Positions 2,139 to 54,227 of a DNA stretch of 55,929 nucleotides are shown here, one piece after another (the first letter of the stretch is position 1; each line of letters begins with the position of its first letter). The position numbers were made by a program, and so were the translations under genes. The notes under the pieces are model-generated. The model did no database searches. It saw only the letters and a program-made list of their open reading frames with translations, and was not told the origin of the DNA. Source of the DNA: a virus; the IMG/VR virus record IMGVR_UViG_3300034101_000961, positions 1-55,929 of that record, one strand, 5' to 3'.

Positions 2139-2672
2139 TTAAGGACACGCTGTTGTAGCAACAATGAATCCACCATTATCTACTTGATAGCTATCTGCAC
2201 CAGCACCTTGAGAGTACCATTGGTTACCTCCCACTACAGGAGTTACTCCACATTCACCAGCTACCCATAACCTTGTAGGGGCTAGAGCATTATCAGTATC
2301 AAATAAAGTTAAGCTTCCTAAATGAGCACATGCAGTGGTATTAGAAGGATATAAATTTAATTGCTGACAAGGAGCAGCTGTAGTGGTTGTAGTTGTTGTA
2401 GATGTACTAGTACTAGTAGTTGTGGATGAACTAGTAGTTGTAGTTGTTGTACATGGCACTATAGATATATCTGTATAGTTTGTACATGTTCCTGTAGACA
2501 TAACACGAACGATTGTTGTGCTAGTTGGAACCACTGTAGATGTATATCCAGCCAATAGGCTAGATTTTGCCACACCTGTCTCAAATGGTGTAGAATAAGA
2601 ATCTACATTTGAATATAGACTAAATGATCCTGTTGAAGAACCAGCTGTCGTTAATGTAATTAATACCGTCAT
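2139..2672 (-). CDS. Virion protein with internal Thr/Ser-rich (mucin-like) tract
   Basis: 177 residues. The N-terminal 70 residues form a Thr/Ser/Val-rich beta domain (MTVLITLTTAGSSTGSFSLY). A run of about 28 Thr/Ser residues follows (about 74-100), ending in AAP. A second small domain with Cys residues then runs to the C-terminus (ends IVATTACP). No signal peptide or membrane segment. It is the last gene of a cluster of tail or fibre proteins and is followed by a terminator. Among the five Thr-tract proteins of the window this is the only one with a domain after the tract. Likely a fibre or decoration protein; exact role unknown. Confidence 0.7.
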   Translation of the reverse strand: MTVLITLTTAGSSTGSFSLYSNVDSYSTPFETGVAKSSLLAGYTSTVVPTSTTIVRVMSTGTCTNYTDISIVPCTTTTTTSSSTTTSTSTSTTTTTTTAAPCQQLNLYPSNTTACAHLGSLTLFDTDNALAPTRLWVAGECGVTPVVGGNQWYSQGAGADSYQVDNGGFIVATTACP

Positions 2673-2684
2673 ATTATAGGTTTA

Positions 2685-3095
2685 TTAAGGAATTGTAGTT
2701 GTAGTGGTTGTTGTTGAAGATGTACTAGTTGTTGTTGATGTAGAACTAGATGTTGTAGTTGTTGTTGTAGGAGGAATTGTTGTAGATGTAGTAGTTGTTG
2801 TGATTGGACAAGAGTTTACCAATGTACAGAACATCACCTTTAAAGATGGATTCTGATTGATTACAGTGATAAGAGTTTGTACTAATTCTACAGGATCAAT
2901 TGCATTATCTAGTTTCTGTAAAGCTAATGTCAATATATCCCCTGTATCAATTCCTGAATTAGGAAGACTTGGGCCATTATATTGAACGGCTGATGTAGGA
3001 ACAGGATAACCAGCGAATGCTCCATTATTACAATTCTGTGGATAATAGGCATTCACTGTATTCTCAAAGCAAGGTGTACCAGGTACGCAAGCCAT
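2685..3095 (-). CDS. Virion protein with C-terminal Thr/Ser-rich tract
   Basis: 136 residues. The N-terminal half is Cys-containing (MACVPGTPCFENTVNAYYPQ). A short module resembles the tail-collar protein encoded next door: a Y.GP.....I.TGD.L pattern at about 38-57. The last 37 residues are almost only Thr and Ser, ending TTTIP. It lies 12 bases from the next gene, in the same operon. Probably a tail or head-fibre adaptor; inferred from neighbours and composition. Confidence 0.68.
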   Translation of the reverse strand: MACVPGTPCFENTVNAYYPQNCNNGAFAGYPVPTSAVQYNGPSLPNSGIDTGDILTLALQKLDNAIDPVELVQTLITVINQNPSLKVMFCTLVNSCPITTTTTSTTIPPTTTTTTSSSTSTTTSTSSTTTTTTTIP

Positions 3096-5247: not shown

Positions 5248-6387
5248 TTAAGGAATCAAAGTAGTTGTTGTTGAAGTACTAGGCCAAACAGTAGTTGTAG
5301 TAGAAGTTGTACTTGTGATAGGACCGCTATCATCAGTTACAGCACCTAAAGCAGCAACTAAGATTGCCTCGATTGTAGCAGTTGCACCACTAGGAATAGC
5401 AATGATAACAGTGCTATCTTCAATGATGTAATCACCCCACTTGTAAGCAGATTTGTCATACTCATTGAACTTAATGTAATAAGTGTCATAAGTAGTACCA
5501 TCAGTTACCCAAGACTCAAAGTTCTCGTTGTAACCAACCATTCTGTACAAATGCTTAAGGTAACCAGCTTGGTAGCTATAGAAGTTTTTCTCTAATTGCT
5601 TGATCTCATCTGAAGTACCAGATACATAAGAAGCACGTTGAGTAACTACAGCCTCAGCAACGATGTTACAATTGTCAGCAACAATGAAGTCAGCAGTTGT
5701 AGCTGGTCCACTGTATACGAAAGTACGGAAGTACATACGATCGTATTCCCAAGGGAATGCAGCAACATCACATGGTTGACCATACTTAGTTAATGGTTTA
5801 CCAGAGATAACTAGTTTAGCACTAGCATTGTTACCAACTCTTTGGAATTGATAGAAGGTATCAAAGCTAATATTGTCAGGGTTGTTACCTGGAGCCTCTT
5901 GTCTGAACTTTAAGATAGCTTGATCGATGAAAGCAGGAACATCAACATCTGCACATGGATCGCCACCACACTCTAAACAAGGAGCAACAACTGTAATAGA
6001 ACGGGTGAAACCGTTGAAATACAATGTGTCAATGTAAGAAGAATGAGCACGTAATGTGAATGTTACAACATCACCTGGTTTAACGTTAAAGTTACTAATT
6101 TCAGTTACTTGGTTAGCAGCAACTGGATTACCAACAACTTTATACCACTCACTAACTTGGGCAGAAGCAATCTTGTCAGAACGCTTAGAACCTTGTAAAT
6201 AAGTGTTTGTTCTACCTTGAGCTAAATAGAAATACGGTTTAGCAGCAATGTTACCTGCATTAGCTACAGTGTAATCGCTTCTAAAAATACCAAACTGACC
6301 TGCGGTCAAGTTTTGCGTAGAACCAGAGCTAGGTAGAGTGTTTCCTACTGGAACTACGAAGAGCGTAGTTAATGAAAAATCAGCCAT
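5248..6387 (-). CDS. Major structural/tail protein with C-terminal Thr tract
   Basis: 379 residues. An N-terminal beta domain (about 1-135; MADFSLTTLFVVPVGNTLPS) is joined by a Cys-rich linker (CLECGGDPCADVD, about 137-149) to an alpha/beta domain with many aromatic residues. The protein ends in a 25-residue Thr/Ser tract finishing TLIP. It follows the connector genes in the order capsid, two connector-like proteins, this protein. That is where a head-fibre, tail-tube or other abundant structural protein usually lies. I cannot name the family. Confidence 0.7.
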   Translation of the reverse strand: MADFSLTTLFVVPVGNTLPSSGSTQNLTAGQFGIFRSDYTVANAGNIAAKPYFYLAQGRTNTYLQGSKRSDKIASAQVSEWYKVVGNPVAANQVTEISNFNVKPGDVVTFTLRAHSSYIDTLYFNGFTRSITVVAPCLECGGDPCADVDVPAFIDQAILKFRQEAPGNNPDNISFDTFYQFQRVGNNASAKLVISGKPLTKYGQPCDVAAFPWEYDRMYFRTFVYSGPATTADFIVADNCNIVAEAVVTQRASYVSGTSDEIKQLEKNFYSYQAGYLKHLYRMVGYNENFESWVTDGTTYDTYYIKFNEYDKSAYKWGDYIIEDSTVIIAIPSGATATIEAILVAALGAVTDDSGPITSTTSTTTTVWPSTSTTTTLIP

Positions 6388-8273: not shown

Positions 8274-9827
8274 TTAGAATTGTGGTATTTCTTCAATTAA
8301 CACTGTACGTGATAAATCTTCAATGAATACATCACAACGGTCTTTCATCCAAATCTCATAACCAGGGAATTTGTTCGCAGAACTCATACCTTGAGACTTA
8401 GCAAAACCTAAGTGGTGACGAGTTCCATCGATATAACCCCAAGTCATTGAAGGAGCACCCTTCATACGTACTTCACGGATGTTGTTAACCATTGAACCAT
8501 CGCTCATAGGAGATACATCAAACACCATGAATACAGGAGTAGATTTTTTGTTCTGACCGAATTCTAAGTTAGTTTGAGGAAGGTCTAATTCTTTTAAGTG
8601 AATTAGTTCAACACGACCTGTTTCACGTGTAACCATTGCATCGAATGCAAAGTTGTAAGTGATGTGTTGACCTTCTCCTTGCATGTAGCGATTACCAGAA
8701 TCAGCCATGAAAGTTAAACCAGAATTAAGTGCATCATTTTTAAGAGCTTGTTGGAACACATCGAAACCAGCTTCGTTAGTGTACATTTTAACTCTACGAT
8801 CCTTAACATCCACACGACGGTAGAATAAGTCACCAAACACTGAACGAATCAAGTTTGCAGTGAACTCACCACGGTTGTATTGTACTAAGTTACCGTTGTT
8901 ACGCATTCTGTGGTATACACCAGCAGATGTACGCTTTAATTCTTGCTTAGAACCATTAGTCTTCACGGTACCAGGCTTAGCCCAGATCATACGCTTAACT
9001 TTTAATTCTAACATAGATTTACGCATCCAGAACTCAATAAATGGTTCCCATTTAACATCGTTACGAGTTAAAGGTAATTGGTTACGTCTTTGTGGAGCAT
9101 ATACTAAGATGTCAAGAGGCTTACCAGAAGCATCACGCATCATTTTATCATCAGCCCATTCAGTGATCTTGTGCTCATAACCATATGCAGAACCTAAAGA
9201 TTCAAACATAGTGATTTGCTCACCTAAACGAGGAAGACCTAATAAGTCTTGATCGAATTCACCGATAGCAGCATCAACTAATTCTAGTTCGATACCAGTT
9301 TGTAAGAAAGTAGCACTTACGTAATCTACTTGAGGGTTGTCAGTCACAAGAGTGAAAGAGTACAAGAAACCAGCGTTCCAAGGAATAGGATCTTTGATAA
9401 CGTAGAAACGAGGACCATACTGACGAGTACCTACAGAAACAATAGCGTTCTTAGAGAACTCATTTGTGTCAATTACAAGAGAAAACTCTTGACCATCGAT
9501 ACCTGGCTTATCTAGAGCTAGAGTGCTATCAGGGATGTCAATGATTTTAGGGAATTTGTAAGGAACTTGTACTTGCCACTTCCAAGCATCACTGTTATTA
9601 TCGATATAGTAAGGAGTAGACTTGTTAATCATGTCTAGGAAGTCATTACTGTAAAGAGAACTCTGAGTGTACAAACTGATAATCTTCTTATCATAATCTG
9701 CTGGCTCAGTTGAGTGAAAGCTTTCCAAGTGGTTAGAATCTGTCAACTTACCTACTGCACGCTTGTCCATAGAAGCAACACGAGCATACGTAAAGCCAGT
9801 TAAACCTGGAATTGTTTGAATTGCCAT
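8274..9827 (-). CDS. Major capsid protein (HK97-fold, inferred)
   Basis: 517 residues beginning MAIQTIPGLTGFTYARVAS. No signal peptide, no low-complexity region, few Cys. It lies directly downstream of the acidic coiled-coil scaffold and in the same operon as terminase and portal, the standard place for the major capsid gene, and its length suits HK97-fold capsids of large tailed phages. The run of strands and helices (KDPIPWNAGFLYSFTLV; ELKVKRMIWAKPGTVKTNG) is compatible with that fold but I cannot show it. A structured RNA spacer follows the stop. Capsid identity rests on gene order and length. Confidence 0.78.
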   Translation of the reverse strand: MAIQTIPGLTGFTYARVASMDKRAVGKLTDSNHLESFHSTEPADYDKKIISLYTQSSLYSNDFLDMINKSTPYYIDNNSDAWKWQVQVPYKFPKIIDIPDSTLALDKPGIDGQEFSLVIDTNEFSKNAIVSVGTRQYGPRFYVIKDPIPWNAGFLYSFTLVTDNPQVDYVSATFLQTGIELELVDAAIGEFDQDLLGLPRLGEQITMFESLGSAYGYEHKITEWADDKMMRDASGKPLDILVYAPQRRNQLPLTRNDVKWEPFIEFWMRKSMLELKVKRMIWAKPGTVKTNGSKQELKRTSAGVYHRMRNNGNLVQYNRGEFTANLIRSVFGDLFYRRVDVKDRRVKMYTNEAGFDVFQQALKNDALNSGLTFMADSGNRYMQGEGQHITYNFAFDAMVTRETGRVELIHLKELDLPQTNLEFGQNKKSTPVFMVFDVSPMSDGSMVNNIREVRMKGAPSMTWGYIDGTRHHLGFAKSQGMSSANKFPGYEIWMKDRCDVFIEDLSRTVLIEEIPQF

Positions 9828-9861: not shown

Positions 9862-11121
9862 TTATTGAAACCATGAAGTTGTAGGCTTGGGCTTATTTCC
9901 TGTTTTTGTAGAACTTTTGCTAACTTGTCTAGCAACTTCACCAAACAATTCATTTGACTTCTTGGTGATACCAGTCTTTTGTATTGTAGATAATGTAGGA
10001 TCCTTTTCTAAAATCTTTAATAAAAGTCCAAACTTAACCTTTGTTGCATGGTTTTCTGGACGCTTAAGTTCTAGAATAGTTTTGTCAAAATCTGTGAGAG
10101 TCTCACCAGATGCTGTCTTATACTTATCTACTAACAGGAAATCTTGTAGTTCACCAGCCAATTTAGGGTTCAGAGGAATACCGTCAAACTCTTTTGCTTT
10201 TAGTTTTTCTTGTAATACAGACTGAACGTTCTGAACATATTGTTGTTTAACAGCAGCTTGCTGTTGTAATCTCTTTTCATTCTCTTGCTCCATTTGTTGA
10301 AGCTTTGCAGCTTCCTTCTTAACCAACACTTTGTGGTGTTTTGTAGCAACAGTTTCCAAATCACCGTAATTCTTAAGTCTTTCAACTTCTGTTGTAACAT
10401 CCTCAGGATCAAATCCTTGATCAGCTAGGGCCTGTTTAATTACTGCAACTTGGTTAGTTTCGTCTGCTAAATCCATCTCAGCGAAACTCTTTATATTATT
10501 ATAAGTACCGAAATACTCTTTTGGATCTACTCCTTTTACAAATATGGCATCAAATGCTTGTTGATAGTCTTCTCCAAATTGACCAATGAAGTTGTTTACC
10601 ACCTCAATAGCTCCTTTCTTTTTCTCAGCTTGGAAACGCTCAAGGAATTCTTCTGGAGTGGAGATTGCAACTTCTTCTTCATCTTCATCTTGGGTAAATA
10701 CACCAAGTTTGAAAAGGTCTTTAGAAAGAGATGTGAATGGACTAGCTGGTTCATCACCCTCTGTTTCTTCATCATCTTCTGTATCTGCAGGAGCTTTTGC
10801 TTTAGGAGCTGGAGCAGGAGAATCTTCATCCTCTTCCTCTTCATCATCTCCACCTAGTAAAAAGTCCTGTAAAGACTTTGTCTTATCTTCTTTATCTTCC
10901 TCATCATTCTCTTCTGGAGCAGCAGCAGGAGCTGTTGTCTTCTTTGCAGGTTTAGCTGCAGGAGCAGGTTCATCTTTAATATCTTGAATATCATCAGGAT
11001 TGGTAGTAGAAGTCTCAGGAGCAAATAAGTCACTTAAAAGCTCTTGGTTTCCCATGCCCATTTCCATAGTATCTTGAATACTAAAGTTTCCCATTGATGG
11101 GTTGTCTAGATTTTCAGCCAT
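9862..11121 (-). CDS. Capsid scaffolding protein
   Basis: 419 residues and strongly acidic. Residues about 45-130 alternate Asp/Glu runs with Ala-Pro-Lys linkers (GGDDEEEEDEDSPAPAPKAK). The middle is helical, a Gln/Glu/Lys coiled coil covers about 245-310 (KKEAAKLQQMEQENEKRLQQ), and the C-terminal tail is basic (KSSTKTGNKPKPTTSWFQ). An acidic, helical protein with a basic C-terminal end immediately upstream of the capsid gene is the typical scaffold arrangement; no protease motif is seen. It has its own promoter candidate at 11154-11184, which would boost scaffold and capsid synthesis. Confidence 0.8.
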   Translation of the reverse strand: MAENLDNPSMGNFSIQDTMEMGMGNQELLSDLFAPETSTTNPDDIQDIKDEPAPAAKPAKKTTAPAAAPEENDEEDKEDKTKSLQDFLLGGDDEEEEDEDSPAPAPKAKAPADTEDDEETEGDEPASPFTSLSKDLFKLGVFTQDEDEEEVAISTPEEFLERFQAEKKKGAIEVVNNFIGQFGEDYQQAFDAIFVKGVDPKEYFGTYNNIKSFAEMDLADETNQVAVIKQALADQGFDPEDVTTEVERLKNYGDLETVATKHHKVLVKKEAAKLQQMEQENEKRLQQQAAVKQQYVQNVQSVLQEKLKAKEFDGIPLNPKLAGELQDFLLVDKYKTASGETLTDFDKTILELKRPENHATKVKFGLLLKILEKDPTLSTIQKTGITKKSNELFGEVARQVSKSSTKTGNKPKPTTSWFQ

Positions 11122-11242: not shown

Positions 11243-11773
11243 CTAATCAAGATTGTTTGTAATTGTGTCATTTATTAACCTAAAGCTCTTAATTGGAGCC
11301 AGATCAGTGAGTGTAACTTGTTGAATTTCAACACCCCACTTCCTTGCTTCAACCCTTACCTTCTTAGTTAATGTGTTATCAAGTTCTGCATCCGTACATT
11401 CTTCCAGGGACATAGACATGATTACATTTTTTATGACACTTTGTGACATGTCAGCTATTGCATCTTGGGCATCAAACACTTCTAACAGGAATGTTTTCAC
11501 ATCTGATATCTTGTATTTGATTACACCCTTGACAACAATGTTCTGTCTATCACTAGTATACAAAGATTGTGCTGGAAGACTTAGTGTTGTAATAACGACA
11601 TGTTGGTCAATCACCTCATCTACAAATGGTATCTTTGGGTGGAACCCAGGTTTTAACACCTTTTTAAATTTACCAAATCTTAGAAGGACTGCCTCCTCGT
11701 AATCCCTGATAATAATACCAGGGAGTACGTCTGAGCCAAATTGTAACACAACGTCAATCAGCCTATCTAACAT
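11243..11773 (-). CDS. SPFH/band 7 (stomatin-prohibitin-like) protein
   Basis: 176 residues. The SPFH pattern is clear: IIRDYEEAVLLRFGKFKKVL (about 21-40), KPGFHPKIPFVDEV (about 41-54), then SLPAQSLYTSDRQNIVVKGV (65-84), a helical segment, and KVRVEARKWGVEIQQVTLTD (138-157), which matches the end of the SPFH core. It lacks the long coiled-coil tail of most stomatins and has only a weak hydrophobic N-terminus. SPFH proteins form membrane-associated rings. It sits between portal and scaffold, three bases from the portal gene, an unusual place. Family assignment is firm; role in assembly is unknown. Confidence 0.88.
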   Translation of the reverse strand: MLDRLIDVVLQFGSDVLPGIIIRDYEEAVLLRFGKFKKVLKPGFHPKIPFVDEVIDQHVVITTLSLPAQSLYTSDRQNIVVKGVIKYKISDVKTFLLEVFDAQDAIADMSQSVIKNVIMSMSLEECTDAELDNTLTKKVRVEARKWGVEIQQVTLTDLAPIKSFRLINDTITNNLD

Positions 11774-50117: not shown

Positions 50118-50150
50118 AAAAAAAGCCCTCCATTTCTGGGGGGGCTTTTT
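50118..50150. terminator. Bidirectional terminator between convergent operons
   Basis: AAAAAGCCCTCC and GGGGGGGCTTTTT pair around ATTTCT with A- and T-runs on both sides, so both strands have a hairpin followed by T residues. It ends the rightward arm and the leftward small-protein operon. Confidence 0.93.
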
Positions 50151-50151
50151 A

Positions 50152-50292
50152 TTATTTTGATAATTTCTTACCAGTCATAGGAGCCATAGGGCTCTTACCT
50201 TTATTTCTAGTATTATCTGATTCCTTCATATAAGGCTTGTTGGGCTTAGGGTTTTTAACCTTAGGAGCTAAACGTGGTTTACCTGATTTCAT
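50152..50292 (-). CDS. Small basic protein, 46 aa
   Basis: Reads MKSGKPRLAPKVKNPKPNKP and ends MAPMTGKKLSK; Lys/Pro-rich, no fold visible. Its start overlaps the stop of the 173-aa gene (TAATG). Probably a small virion- or DNA-associated peptide; inferred from composition and neighbours. Confidence 0.62.
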   Translation of the reverse strand: MKSGKPRLAPKVKNPKPNKPYMKESDNTRNKGKSPMAPMTGKKLSK

Positions 50293-50813
50293 TAGCAACC
50301 ATATTTACATTTTCCCATAGACTTACCCATCTTAGCTTTACCACCAGATTTCTTCTTTTCAATTTTTTTCTTCAACTTATCTAAAGAAGGCACCTTGTCA
50401 AAACTCTTTTTGTCAAAGTTCATTCCTTTTGGTCTTGCCTTAGATACTGAATCACTAGGTGCAATATAGTTTTTACCAAGAACAGAAGCTTTGTCTAAAG
50501 ACTTAGCCATATCATCAGTACGTTTGTTTTGAGCAGCTTTTGTCATCTTTGTACCAGATTGTGCTTTCTTAACTTTCATACCATGCTTAGCTGCAGGAGC
50601 AGATTTAGCAGCTTTCTTTTCAGCTCTTTCAGCTTGACGTTCTTCACGACCAGCTACTCTCACAGCTTTTTTATAATCACGTTCAGCCACTCTAGCTTCT
50701 TTGCGTTCAGCACGATCAGCACCTGATGTAGTTGCAGCACAACCACCACGGTACCCACCTTTTTTTATAGGAGCTCCAAATTGAGCCTTTTTAACTTTTT
50801 TAACAGTTGCCAT
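50292..50813 (-). CDS. Lys/Ala-rich KKAQxG protein
   Basis: 173 residues, rich in Lys, Ala and Arg. N-terminal MATVKKVKKAQFG and internal MKVKKAQSG carry the KKAQxG motif shared with two neighbours. Contains a long charged helix (RAERKEARVAERDYKKAVRV) and a Cys pair at the very end (GKCKYGC). Histone-like composition fits DNA binding or capsid interior. The motif may be a packaging or cleavage signal; function unknown. Confidence 0.65.
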   Translation of the reverse strand: MATVKKVKKAQFGAPIKKGGYRGGCAATTSGADRAERKEARVAERDYKKAVRVAGREERQAERAEKKAAKSAPAAKHGMKVKKAQSGTKMTKAAQNKRTDDMAKSLDKASVLGKNYIAPSDSVSKARPKGMNFDKKSFDKVPSLDKLKKKIEKKKSGGKAKMGKSMGKCKYGC

Positions 50814-50831
50814 TTTTATAATTTTAAATTG

Positions 50832-51362
50832 TTAGCATTTCCATTTACGCAAAGACTTATTAATCCTACTGTTAGGGTCATTTGCTGTCTTAGAACTTGT
50901 GAGTTTCTTTTTCATACCTGACATCCTAGCACAGAATGATTTCTTTCTAGGACCACCTTCAGGTTGAGGAGCTTTAAGACCAGGCTTGCCTGGATTAGCT
51001 CTATTATATGAGGCTCTTCCTTTAGCGTTTAAACCACCAGAAGGATTTTTACCTTCTTTTCTTTGCCATGCTGGTGTAGAACCACCATTCTTTTGTTTCT
51101 TTAGTCTATTTTCTCTACCTTCTCTAACACCTTCAATCTCTTGCCAATTATCAAAAACACTAGCGTTACCTCCTTTTACACCTCTTTTATATCCACTTCT
51201 ATATAGTGCTGAATCTATAGAACTAGGTTTTTTACCACTTGGTACAGGTCTATCTATATATTTATATTTTGTAGGGGTGGTACGTACAGGATCTATAATA
51301 GGTTTTTTAACTCTAGTATTATCAACTTTACTACCACCTTGAGCTTTTTTAATCCTAGCCAT
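50832..51362 (-). CDS. Lys/Gly-rich KKAQxG protein
   Basis: 176 residues from the ATG at 51362 (MARIKKAQGGSKVDNTRVKK); an in-frame upstream ATG at 51458 would overlap the next gene by about 95 bases and is rejected. Basic and Gly/Lys/Asn-rich, with a repeated RKEGKNPSGGLNAKGRASYN stretch (PSGGLNAKGR is common in such phage proteins). Ends with Lys/Arg. Part of a series of unordered basic proteins; likely a DNA-binding virion component. Confidence 0.65.
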   Translation of the reverse strand: MARIKKAQGGSKVDNTRVKKPIIDPVRTTPTKYKYIDRPVPSGKKPSSIDSALYRSGYKRGVKGGNASVFDNWQEIEGVREGRENRLKKQKNGGSTPAWQRKEGKNPSGGLNAKGRASYNRANPGKPGLKAPQPEGGPRKKSFCARMSGMKKKLTSSKTANDPNSRINKSLRKWKC

Positions 51363-51363
51363 C

Positions 51364-51762
51364 TTATTTCTTTTTACCTTTGTACTTGTAATCAGGGTTG
51401 TCTTTGTGCCACTTCTTTGTAGAAGCAACACCTTGTTTAACAGTCTTTGCTCTACCAATCTTAGTGAGATTGATTGTATCCCATTTACCTTTATCTTTAG
51501 TAGGGTGGTTTACAACTATGTCTCCAGGTTTAGCTTTAGCTGTTTTCTTTGTGGCTTTATAAACTACATGTTTTTCTCCACCAGCTGTAACCTTCACCTT
51601 ACCACCATCTTTTAATGTAGAGCCTTTAAACTCTCCCTTCTTTTTAACAAGAGGACCATTAGGAACAGGAGTGATTTTACCACCAGCTCTAAGAACTCCC
51701 TTACCTACATAAGCTTCTGCTTTCTGTGGGTTATACACCTTGGTCTTAGGAATTCTAGGCAT
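51364..51762 (-). CDS. Basic protein, 132 aa
   Basis: Begins MPRIPKTKVYNPQKAEAYVG. Lys/Gly-rich with KTAKAKPGDIVVNHPTKDKG near the middle and a tail ending DYKYKGKKK. Located between two KKAQ-type genes, one base from the next. Structure unknown; probable virion basic protein. Confidence 0.62.
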   Translation of the reverse strand: MPRIPKTKVYNPQKAEAYVGKGVLRAGGKITPVPNGPLVKKKGEFKGSTLKDGGKVKVTAGGEKHVVYKATKKTAKAKPGDIVVNHPTKDKGKWDTINLTKIGRAKTVKQGVASTKKWHKDNPDYKYKGKKK

Positions 51763-51763
51763 G

Positions 51764-51925
51764 TTATTTACCTTTACGCTTTGCAGTTATTTTCTTGAAT
51801 GTTTTAGCAAGAGCTTTAGCCTTACCTGTACAACCAGGCTTAGTAATAGGAGTGCATTTGCCTTCTGTACCTCTAGCCTTAATAGACTTAGATACCTTCT
51901 GCATCCACTTTTTATCTGTAGCCAT
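51764..51925 (-). CDS. Small basic protein, 53 aa
   Basis: Reads MATDKKWMQKVSKSIKARGT, then EGKCTPITKPGCTGKAKALA and ends with Lys/Arg. The two Cys and pattern KWMQKVSKSIK...KC.PITK.GC are found in related phages. It starts on the stop of the upstream gene (TAATG). Function unknown. Confidence 0.65.
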   Translation of the reverse strand: MATDKKWMQKVSKSIKARGTEGKCTPITKPGCTGKAKALAKTFKKITAKRKGK

Positions 51926-52443
51926 TATTTTTTCTTTTTCATTTTACCACCAGATTTCATCTTTGTAGCACCTAACTGCTTGTCCTTCTTAAGACTTACA
52001 GAAGTTTTAACATTACGAGGAGGTAAGTTCATTTCTTGAACCTTAGTCCAAGCACCTTTAGGATCAACAGGTCCTACACGCTTGTTAGAAGCTTTTAATC
52101 CAGCCTGAGCTTTCTTAATCTTGCCACCATTCTTAATAACACCACGTCCTTTAAGGATGTCAGCTTTAGTAATCTTACCATCCTTGTTTAAGTCTGGGAA
52201 TGATTTACCGTTTTTAGCACTCTTAGCTTCTGCCATAGTTCTAGCTTTAAATGCAGGTAGGTCTTCCTTAGGTGAAAGAGAATCATAAATTTCACTACCA
52301 CGTTTTCTACGTGTAGCTCTTAACTTCATGCGTTCTGCTACTTCTTTAGCTCTTTCAGGATTTTTCTCTGCAATTCTACCAAGTCTTTTCTTTTGTCTAC
52401 CTGTAATACGATCACCGTATTGGGCTTTTTTAATAGTTGCCAT
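51925..52443 (-). CDS. KKAQxG protein with EF-hand-like loop
   Basis: 172 residues beginning MATIKKAQYGDRITGRQKKR. KKAQYG at the N-terminus and KKAQAG at about 113. Residues about 84-95 read DLNKDGKITKAD, a textbook EF-hand/dockerin calcium loop (D, N, D, G, I, D at 1, 3, 5, 6, 8, 12). Ends GGKMKKKK. A calcium-binding, basic protein in a virion-type operon; role unknown. Confidence 0.68.
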   Translation of the reverse strand: MATIKKAQYGDRITGRQKKRLGRIAEKNPERAKEVAERMKLRATRRKRGSEIYDSLSPKEDLPAFKARTMAEAKSAKNGKSFPDLNKDGKITKADILKGRGVIKNGGKIKKAQAGLKASNKRVGPVDPKGAWTKVQEMNLPPRNVKTSVSLKKDKQLGATKMKSGGKMKKKK

Positions 52444-52448
52444 TTTAT

Positions 52449-52529
52449 TTATATATTAGATTGTTCTAGACATTTAGGACATTGTCCTTCCTCAAGAGCT
52501 ATTTCATGTATGGAGCAATGATCGTTCAT
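52449..52529 (-). CDS. Tiny Cys protein, 26 aa
   Basis: Reads MNDHCSIHEIALEEGQCPKC then LEQSNI; C.....H and CPxC could bind a metal ion. Its ATG shares bases with the stop of the upstream 55-aa gene (TAATG), which argues for translation despite the size. Confidence 0.45.
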   Translation of the reverse strand: MNDHCSIHEIALEEGQCPKCLEQSNI

Positions 52530-52696
52530 TACTTGCTCTTAGCCTTGATTTTCTTTTCCTGCTTAAGCATAGCAGACGTAGGTTTCTTACCAGGTTTACC
52601 AGCAGCTTTATTCTTTTTAGCTGCAGCACGGATGTTATCCCATAATCCTCTTTGAGAGGTGGAACCATCAGCACGTTTTATCATTTCTTTTGCCAT
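52529..52696 (-). CDS. Small basic protein, 55 aa
   Basis: Reads MAKEMIKRADGSTSQRGLWD, then NIRAAAKKNKAAGKPGKKPT and ends KIKAKSK. The pattern GLWDNIRA...GKKPT..MLKQEKKIK is one I associate with phages of Bacteroidota. Lies next to the 95-aa gene. Confidence 0.65.
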   Translation of the reverse strand: MAKEMIKRADGSTSQRGLWDNIRAAAKKNKAAGKPGKKPTSAMLKQEKKIKAKSK

Positions 52697-53050: not shown

Positions 53051-53332
53051 TTACATGGTGATATCAAACACTATTGTGGCAGAACTCTTTATACTTTTAG
53101 ACAGATCTAAATGGATCTGTAAGAGGTTATGAAACTTCAATAACTCTTCTAGCAGCATGTCATTATACCTGGGTATAGATGGTGCTAGTCTAAAGTGATA
53201 GGAATTGGGATTCCTAGTAATTTCTAATGTGGCTAACTCATCCACAGATGATATAATTCCCTCAAGGTGTGCAAAATAAGCTATTTCATTATCTTGCATC
53301 ACCTGAGGAAAGAATTTCTTGTTAATCTGCAT
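53051..53332 (-). CDS. Hypothetical protein, 93 aa
   Basis: Begins MQINKKFFPQVMQDNEIAYF. The pattern FRLAPSIPRYNDMLLEELLKFHNLLQIHLDLSKSIKSSATIVFD (here given in parts: NSYHFRLAPSIPRYNDML, LQIHLDLSKSIKSSA) recurs in phages. Overlaps the Dps-like gene by one base. Unknown. Confidence 0.62.
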   Translation of the reverse strand: MQINKKFFPQVMQDNEIAYFAHLEGIISSVDELATLEITRNPNSYHFRLAPSIPRYNDMLLEELLKFHNLLQIHLDLSKSIKSSATIVFDITM

Positions 53333-53736
53333 TAAGACAAGGTTAATAAGTATTTAGTTTTTGCTGCTTCTCCAGATAATGCATCTGCTAAATTAGCTAT
53401 ATCGTGATAGCTGTTTGCTTCACCATAGCTTTTTAATGAAGATGCAAAAGATAAAAGATTTGAAACACACTCATTCCCTGTACAATTTATAAGAGGTTCT
53501 ATCTTATATGGAGCAGGACGTTTACCTGTATACCCCATGATCTTCTCAATTACACCATCTTTAAAGTCTTGTACATATTCATATAGTTTCCCAAGAGCTT
53601 TGTGTTCAGCATAACTAGTTGTTTGCCAATGAGTTAAATGTAATTGCTCATGAAAATACGTAAGCTTTCCAGCTATTGTTTCTAAATTTAGTTCTCCTGA
53701 TTTCATCATCTCATCAGGGAATAATGATTTTGCCAT
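53332..53736 (-). CDS. Dps/ferritin-like protein
   Basis: 134 residues. The first helix pair follows the Dps pattern: LTYFHEQLHLTHWQTTSYAE (about 25-44), HKALGKLYEYVQDFKDGVIE (about 45-64), with His, Asp and Glu residues that could bind iron at the subunit interface. A later Cys pair (CTGNEC) and a C-terminal helical part. Related to the phage family DUF5856. Might protect DNA from oxidants or be part of the particle. Fold likely, function inferred. Confidence 0.78.
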   Translation of the reverse strand: MAKSLFPDEMMKSGELNLETIAGKLTYFHEQLHLTHWQTTSYAEHKALGKLYEYVQDFKDGVIEKIMGYTGKRPAPYKIEPLINCTGNECVSNLLSFASSLKSYGEANSYHDIANLADALSGEAAKTKYLLTLS

Positions 53737-53747
53737 TTAGTTTTATT

Positions 53748-54227
53748 TTAAGGAGCTGCAGTAGTTGTAGTAGTGGTTGTACTAGTACTAGTAGAAGTAG
53801 TAGTTGTTGTACTAGTAGATGATGTAGTGGTAGTAGTTGTATTACTAAAACTTACTTCAGGACTTAAACCAGAACACTCACAACCAGCTCCTGCTGTAAT
53901 AACTGTTGTAGTTCCTGATGCATCTACTGCAGATACAGAACCAGTTACAGCACATATAGTAGTTACTAATAAATTAGTACCAACTAAATTTACAGTTTGT
54001 GTGCTGTTGTCAACACCAGATCTGTAAGTGATAACACTTGATAGAGCACCTGAAGCAGTTGCTACAACTTGATAAGAGGTACCGCCACTGTTGCACTCAT
54101 ACCCTTGTACTTGTTGCCAGTTGCCTACCTTTGGTTTGTTTCTACGCAGTATTAAGCTACCTGCAACTACTCTGCCACTACCATCATAGCGGACATAAGC
54201 TTTAAGATCACGATTGTTACTTCCCAT
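53748..54227 (-). CDS. Virion protein with C-terminal Thr/Ser tract
   Basis: 159 residues. Starts MGSNNRDLKAYVRYDGSGRV; the first 125 residues look beta-rich (RVVAGSLILRRNKPKVGNWQ; NNLVTTICAVTGS-like) with scattered Cys. The final 30 are Thr/Ser, ending TTTAAP, nearly the same as in the tail-region proteins. Directly next to a glycosyltransferase gene. Confidence 0.72.
   Translation of the reverse strand: MGSNNRDLKAYVRYDGSGRVVAGSLILRRNKPKVGNWQQVQGYECNSGGTSYQVVATASGALSSVITYRSGVDNSTQTVNLVGTNLLVTTICAVTGSVSAVDASGTTTVITAGAGCECSGLSPEVSFSNTTTTTTSSTSTTTTTSTSTSTTTTTTTAAP

Follow-up and report, generated by a model that had tools for sequence, protein, structure and literature searches.

Several phages carry proteins in their heads under a shared sequence mark. 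The internal proteins IPI to IPIII of T4 ride in the phage head and are then ejected (PMC9026906). The ejection proteins of SPN3US and phiKZ-type phages are a set of unlike internal head proteins that have propeptides and one common motif, which is a processing site cut by a known prohead protease (PMC10052503). The head and tail of crAss001 hold several megadaltons of protein, and the cargo protein C1 (gp45) is packaged in both; residues 425 to 552 of gp45 form a domain bound to the portal in the capsid interior, and a further part of the protein lines the tail barrel (PMC10172136). In this study, we describe a motif, KKAQxG, that resembles the capsid targeting sequence (CTS) of the T4 internal proteins in being a short common N-terminal peptide on unlike, small, basic proteins and that also occurs in a large protein resembling gp45. 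To our knowledge, no sorting signal is known for the cargo of crAss001, and a literature search for KKAQ together with phage returned nothing relevant and no description of the motif.

The window, i.e., the whole stretch of DNA that was analyzed, is a 55.9-kb IMG/VR virus record that probably represents about half of a crAss-like phage genome. The close relative G006 has 114,588 bases and is 96% identical across 96% of the window; therefore, the phage probably has a genome of ~115 kb, roughly half of which, including the tail-tip and cargo genes, is missing here. Structural genes lie at 2 to 16 kb on the minus strand, and replication genes are on the plus strand; the genes of the small basic proteins that are the subject of this work (Table 1) share the strand of the structural genes, and a terminator-like hairpin divides their cluster from convergent plus-strand genes. 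The structural genes include those of a major capsid protein of the crAss type, of a large terminase (phrog_6681), and of a portal for which tblastn returned mainly crassvirus relatives; the ring 3/4 tail ring protein of the window scored below the curated cut-off, and CrAss_Ring_1 in G006 scored above it. Judged by the sequences of its capsid, portal, terminase, and tail ring proteins, the phage belongs to the order Crassvirales.

Table 1. Features of the small-protein cluster and the major capsid protein gene in the window
Feature	Position	Strand	Description
Major capsid protein, crAss type	8274-9827	-	PF23898 Crass_capsid, E = 6e-28
Terminator-like hairpin	50120-50150	.	consensus match only
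Basic ORF	50152-50292	-	46 aa (MKSGKPRLAP..); last cluster gene, without KKAQxG
ORF A	50292-50813	-	173 aa, net charge +33; KKAQFG at residue 8, KKAQSG at residue 82
KKAQSG, internal in A	50553-50570	-	
KKAQFG, head of A	50775-50792	-	
ORF B	50832-51362	-	176 aa; MARIKKAQGG head, KKAQGG at residue 5; C-terminal DUF6321
DUF6321 payload module of B	50841-51053	-	PF19846, E = 3.9e-19
KKAQGG, head of B	51333-51350	-	
ORF C	51364-51762	-	132 aa, basic, without KKAQxG
ORF D	51764-51925	-	53 aa, stand-alone KWMQK..KPGCTG module, without KKAQxG
ORF E	51925-52443	-	172 aa, net charge +34; KKAQYG at residue 5, KKAQAG at residue 110
KKAQAG, internal in E	52099-52116	-	
KKAQYG, head of E	52414-52431	-	
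ORF F	52529-52696	-	55 aa, stand-alone SQRGLWDNIRA module, without KKAQxG

Several other genes of the window deserve mention. An SPFH/Band 7 protein (PF01145, E = 6e-27; 11243-11773, minus strand) is encoded between the portal gene and a scaffold-like gene, an interval that is the usual place of the prohead protease in many phages; the SPFH gene of crAss001 is found at another place (gp91). The protein at the scaffold position (9862-11121, minus strand) has a very acidic N-terminal third with D/E runs and is a plausible electrostatic partner of basic cargo. Near the basic cluster lies the gene of a Dps/ferritin-like protein (phrog_858, DUF5856; 53332-53736, minus strand), and crAss001 gp7 is likewise annotated as DpsA. 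A low-complexity element, a long Ser/Thr tract (STTTTSTSTTTT..), is common to four proteins of the window (2139-2672, 2685-3095, 5248-6387, and 53748-54227, all on the minus strand); three of the four are encoded in the structural block, and in three the tract is at the extreme C terminus.

The preliminary description of this DNA reported three basic proteins that open with KKAQxG and internal copies in two, and all five copies were confirmed, on the minus strand. In A, the head is offset (MATVKKVKKAQFG). The true start codon of B is the ATG at position 51362, not the TTG at 51458. A degenerate DNA pattern gave five matches in the window (reversed control, 0), and residue shuffling gave 0.004 expected copies compared with 4 observed, a conservative figure since the count omitted the copy in B, which was misframed there. 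The AlphaFold model of E has a mean pLDDT of 58, with values below 50 around both copies of the motif, which are predicted to lie, probably, in disordered segments.

Outside the window, the pattern MAx[IV]KKAQxG matched 97 stretches of IMG/VR. KKAQxG was present in 30/30 long relatives, at 1 to 7 copies each (reversed-pattern control, 0), and in 29 of these genomes the cluster and C1 matches lay on one single strand. These relatives had been selected via matches to the motif or to the cluster proteins; therefore, a second sample was drawn using the C1 domain (see below) alone, and 14 of its 16 long records contained KKAQxG. With two records common to both samples, the motif occurs in 42 of 44 distinct related records of >80 kb (reversed control, 0). 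The searched genomes of named phages did not carry the motif: it was not found in crAss001 or eleven further Crassvirales references (including crAss002 and Carjivirus communis [p-crAssphage]), nor in Leptolyngbya phage Lbo-JY46, phage phi38:1, or Cellulophaga phage phi14:2, whose virion proteins have MS/MS annotation. Bacterial genome contigs gave nine matches, which were unclustered. A bacterial occurrence was dismissed as chance, the four matches that read in an open reading frame being two long rRNA methyltransferase-like proteins and two tiny ORFs. Its presence in the relatives, its absence from the named phages, and the unclustered bacterial matches mark KKAQxG, at the level of sequence, as a feature of an uncultured crAss-like phage group.

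Most genomes also had one or a few matches well away from the small-protein cluster. Of 20 such distant regions that were examined, 19 had their matches in a protein of mostly 900 to 1,600 aa. The gene of this large protein lies between the muzzle gene and the C2/RNAP-type genes, which is the C1 position. When profiles of 20 large proteins and six gp45-type proteins were aligned with hhalign, gp45 residues 425 to 509 were matched at 97% probability (E = 1e-10) with a score of 98, and no shuffled, reversed, or other crAss001 profile scored above 28; there was also a weak collinear match at the C terminus, and the cr8_1 protein QOR58845 was matched from both sides. HMMER with the C1 profile did not find gp45 in crAss001 or in the PDB; only profile-profile comparison did so. 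A Foldseek search with the modeled C1 domain also missed gp45 in the PDB, returning only weak matches to the DnaK substrate domain. A fold search of a viral library returned NIOZ-UU157 and, weakly, the cr8_1 protein, and PHROGs held no name for the domain. Because Foldseek and HMMER missed gp45, the homology rests on profile comparison and gene position, and these support the identification of the large protein as a putative crassvirus cargo protein C1 with a portal-bound domain, although gp45 and the other named crassviruses searched lack KKAQxG.

For the phage represented here, the C1 gene lies outside the window and is inferred from G006. Among 70 distinct C1 proteins retrieved independently of the motif, 50 carry the strict motif and 62 a generalized form. 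The copies are at residue 35 or deeper, to over 1,200, and the motif usually follows a conserved N-terminal piece of 35 to 38 residues; a few C1 proteins begin with another N-terminal piece and have KAQNG in place of the motif, and N-terminal pieces of 35 to 45 aa were seen only in this lineage. In the C1-type protein of G009 (L211:12605-16195, minus strand), a resemblance to M15-like peptidases begins at residue ~665, directly after IPKAQRG (phrog_894 endolysin, weak), which suggests a putative peptidoglycan-cutting payload within an ejection protein. Near the C1 position, phi14:2 gp081 (L319:9942-11723, minus strand), which is MS/MS annotated as structural, has two HExxH zincin-like motifs; HExxH was also seen in the giant RNAP-region protein of G009 and in a tail-region protein of G019.

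The core of the motif is [IVLMF]-x-[KR]-A-Q-x-G. In three complete proteomes, this generalized form occurred 20 times, compared with 0.56 in shuffles, always in the small-protein cluster or in the protein at the C1 position; it was absent from the capsid, portal, scaffold-like, C2, and giant RNAP proteins. Across 336 distinct sites, every synonymous codon was used and the fifth residue was free, and copies within one locus agreed in their synonymous codons no more than independent draws. Since the synonymous codons are randomized, the motif is conserved by selection on the protein and not on the DNA, and a DNA-level repeat or recombination signal was ruled out on the same grounds. A translation-start effect of A-rich first codons was rejected as the main cause, given the C1 copies at residue 35 to >1,200.

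The remainders of the motif proteins had been described as unlike one another, which is true within the window; across phages, however, they proved to be recurring modules. The small proteins are mosaics, "head plus payload" chimeras of exchangeable modules, of which DUF6321, RGLWDNIRA, DLNKDGKITKADIL, KWxQK.., and VDPKGAWTKVQ are conserved. These modules either come first in the protein, immediately after its start, or follow an extension, which often opens with KKAQxG and often ends in a GG[KS] joint, and the same payload modules recur with different heads across phages. The module of ORF C (NPQKAxAYVGKGVL / ITPVPNGPLVKKKG) occurs as an alternative head too, the D module is fused behind another extension in G006, and the internal KKAQAG of E opens an independent protein in other phages. 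Three payload modules were bare at the N terminus, without the motif, in 6/29, 14/56, and 25/71 cases; therefore, these modules do not require the head. For modules D and F, isolates offered no informative relatives. Comparison of positions 50315 to 52539 of the window with positions 86298 to 88987 of G006 placed the cluster among the most mosaic parts of these otherwise 96%-identical phages, with heads kept and modules swapped.

Protein B matches PF19846 (DUF6321) at 69.5 bits, compared with a curated cut-off of 28.5. This domain of ~75 residues is highly conserved in crAss-like phages, T4-like cyanophages, and pelagiphages, and protein B matched 547 phage records; in the best matches among the T4-like cyanophages and pelagiphages, the domain is C-terminal, as in B, with 64 to 83% identity. 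The DUF6321 genes of P-RSM1 and Syn9 lie near head-tail and terminase genes, and the domain is fused there to a longer N-terminal region. DUF6321 is single copy in 16/16 long records of the lineage and occurs in 2/5 others (18/21 in total). The KKAQxG pattern was absent from three DUF6321-bearing cyanophage and pelagiphage genomes searched and from G042, which has DUF6321. A literature search found no paper on the domain.

We ranked a docking or sorting mark first among the readings of these data, followed by a cleavage site and then by a joint without a reader. The first, which we favor tentatively and judge to be close to an even call, is that KKAQxG is a short linear motif of virion-cargo proteins, bound by a common partner. 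The small KKAQxG proteins would be packaged along with the DNA, and during head filling the motif may be bound by one partner: the portal, the scaffold, or C1 itself. A single mark would gather very different payloads into the head, with an effect similar to that of the T4 internal-protein CTS, but the mark would be repeatable, also within chains. The preliminary description had proposed a targeting or processing signal, perhaps for entry into the capsid; protein-level selection, the occurrence of the motif in the C1-position homologue of gp45, and the location of the cluster on the structural strand all support the capsid-cargo part of this idea. As an N-terminal signal, the motif does open A, B, and E, but it also lies inside small proteins and at residue 35 or deeper in C1, and a head confined to the N terminus was too narrow a view; identical payloads also occur without one. 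Against an obligatory tag stand these bare payloads, the absence of the motif from C2 and RNAP, which are expected cargo too, and G042, which has no copy; against a cargo mark in general, crAss001 packages C1 yet has no KKAQxG.

Cleavage at or close to AQxG by a protease of the phage or its host, which would free the heads, the 35- to 45-residue C1 piece, and the fused modules, seems unlikely to us, although unlike N-terminal extensions do reach the same site: the MxxI start of the small proteins, the 35- to 38-residue piece of C1, and the piece preceding KAQNG in a few C1 proteins. Cleavage would also suit the observation that 23 of 78 distinct internal copies precede sequence that opens an independent KKAQxG-headed protein in another phage (shuffles, 0), as well as the probable disorder predicted around the copies in E. 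The motif is nonetheless missing from the capsid, portal, and scaffold-like proteins, unlike known head-maturation sites, and the search for a recognized prohead protease that could process it gave no candidate: Peptidase_S78 and ClpP families were detected in 0/16 genomes with working controls, S77 was detected in 0/16 but its control gave no signal, and Pfam named no protease among the scanned head-region genes of the window.

Somewhat more doubtful still is a basic, flexible cassette at module fusions that spread by duplication and has no dedicated reader. Module exchange is clear, a Lys/Ala/Gln/Gly composition fits linkers, and degenerate forms (KAKDG, KKAKxG, KKAAMG, and IPKAQxG) and GG[KS] joints are found at similar places; however, exact AQxG is preserved despite randomized synonymous codons, the motif is restricted to just two protein groups of a linker-rich proteome, and copies at the extreme N terminus have nothing there to join. 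Nucleic acid contact by a repeated basic element of small, histone-like, DNA-condensing proteins is very improbable, since neither charge nor DNA binding explains, respectively, the conserved A, Q, and G or the placement near residue 5, even though the small proteins are strongly basic, C1 adjoins packaged DNA in crAss001, and a Dps-like gene is nearby.

KKAQxG differs from the T4 CTS in several ways: it has internal copies, it is present in a large cargo protein, and its payloads can exist without it; the two show no sequence relation, and no S78 protease was found in the KKAQxG phages. Because the motif is not confined to N termini and no such protease was found, we do not file it as a member of the T4-type CTS class. 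The SPN3US/phiKZ type differs in its known protease, for which the KKAQxG lineage has no recognized counterpart. A narrower proposal is that KKAQxG serves this crassvirus lineage as a repeatable cargo mark that needs no protease and that, whether N-terminal or internal, would gather many interchangeable small payloads and the ejection protein C1 into the head; we put it forward as speculative and rather improbable in this full form.

The conservation of DUF6321 between this lineage and cyanophages points to a widespread unknown function. A motif common to C1 and a set of interchangeable small proteins provides a concrete candidate for a sorting signal. If the docking or sorting reading is true, KKAQxG would provide a means of discovering injected proteins that are as yet unknown and might also serve as a tag with which such particles could be loaded with protein.
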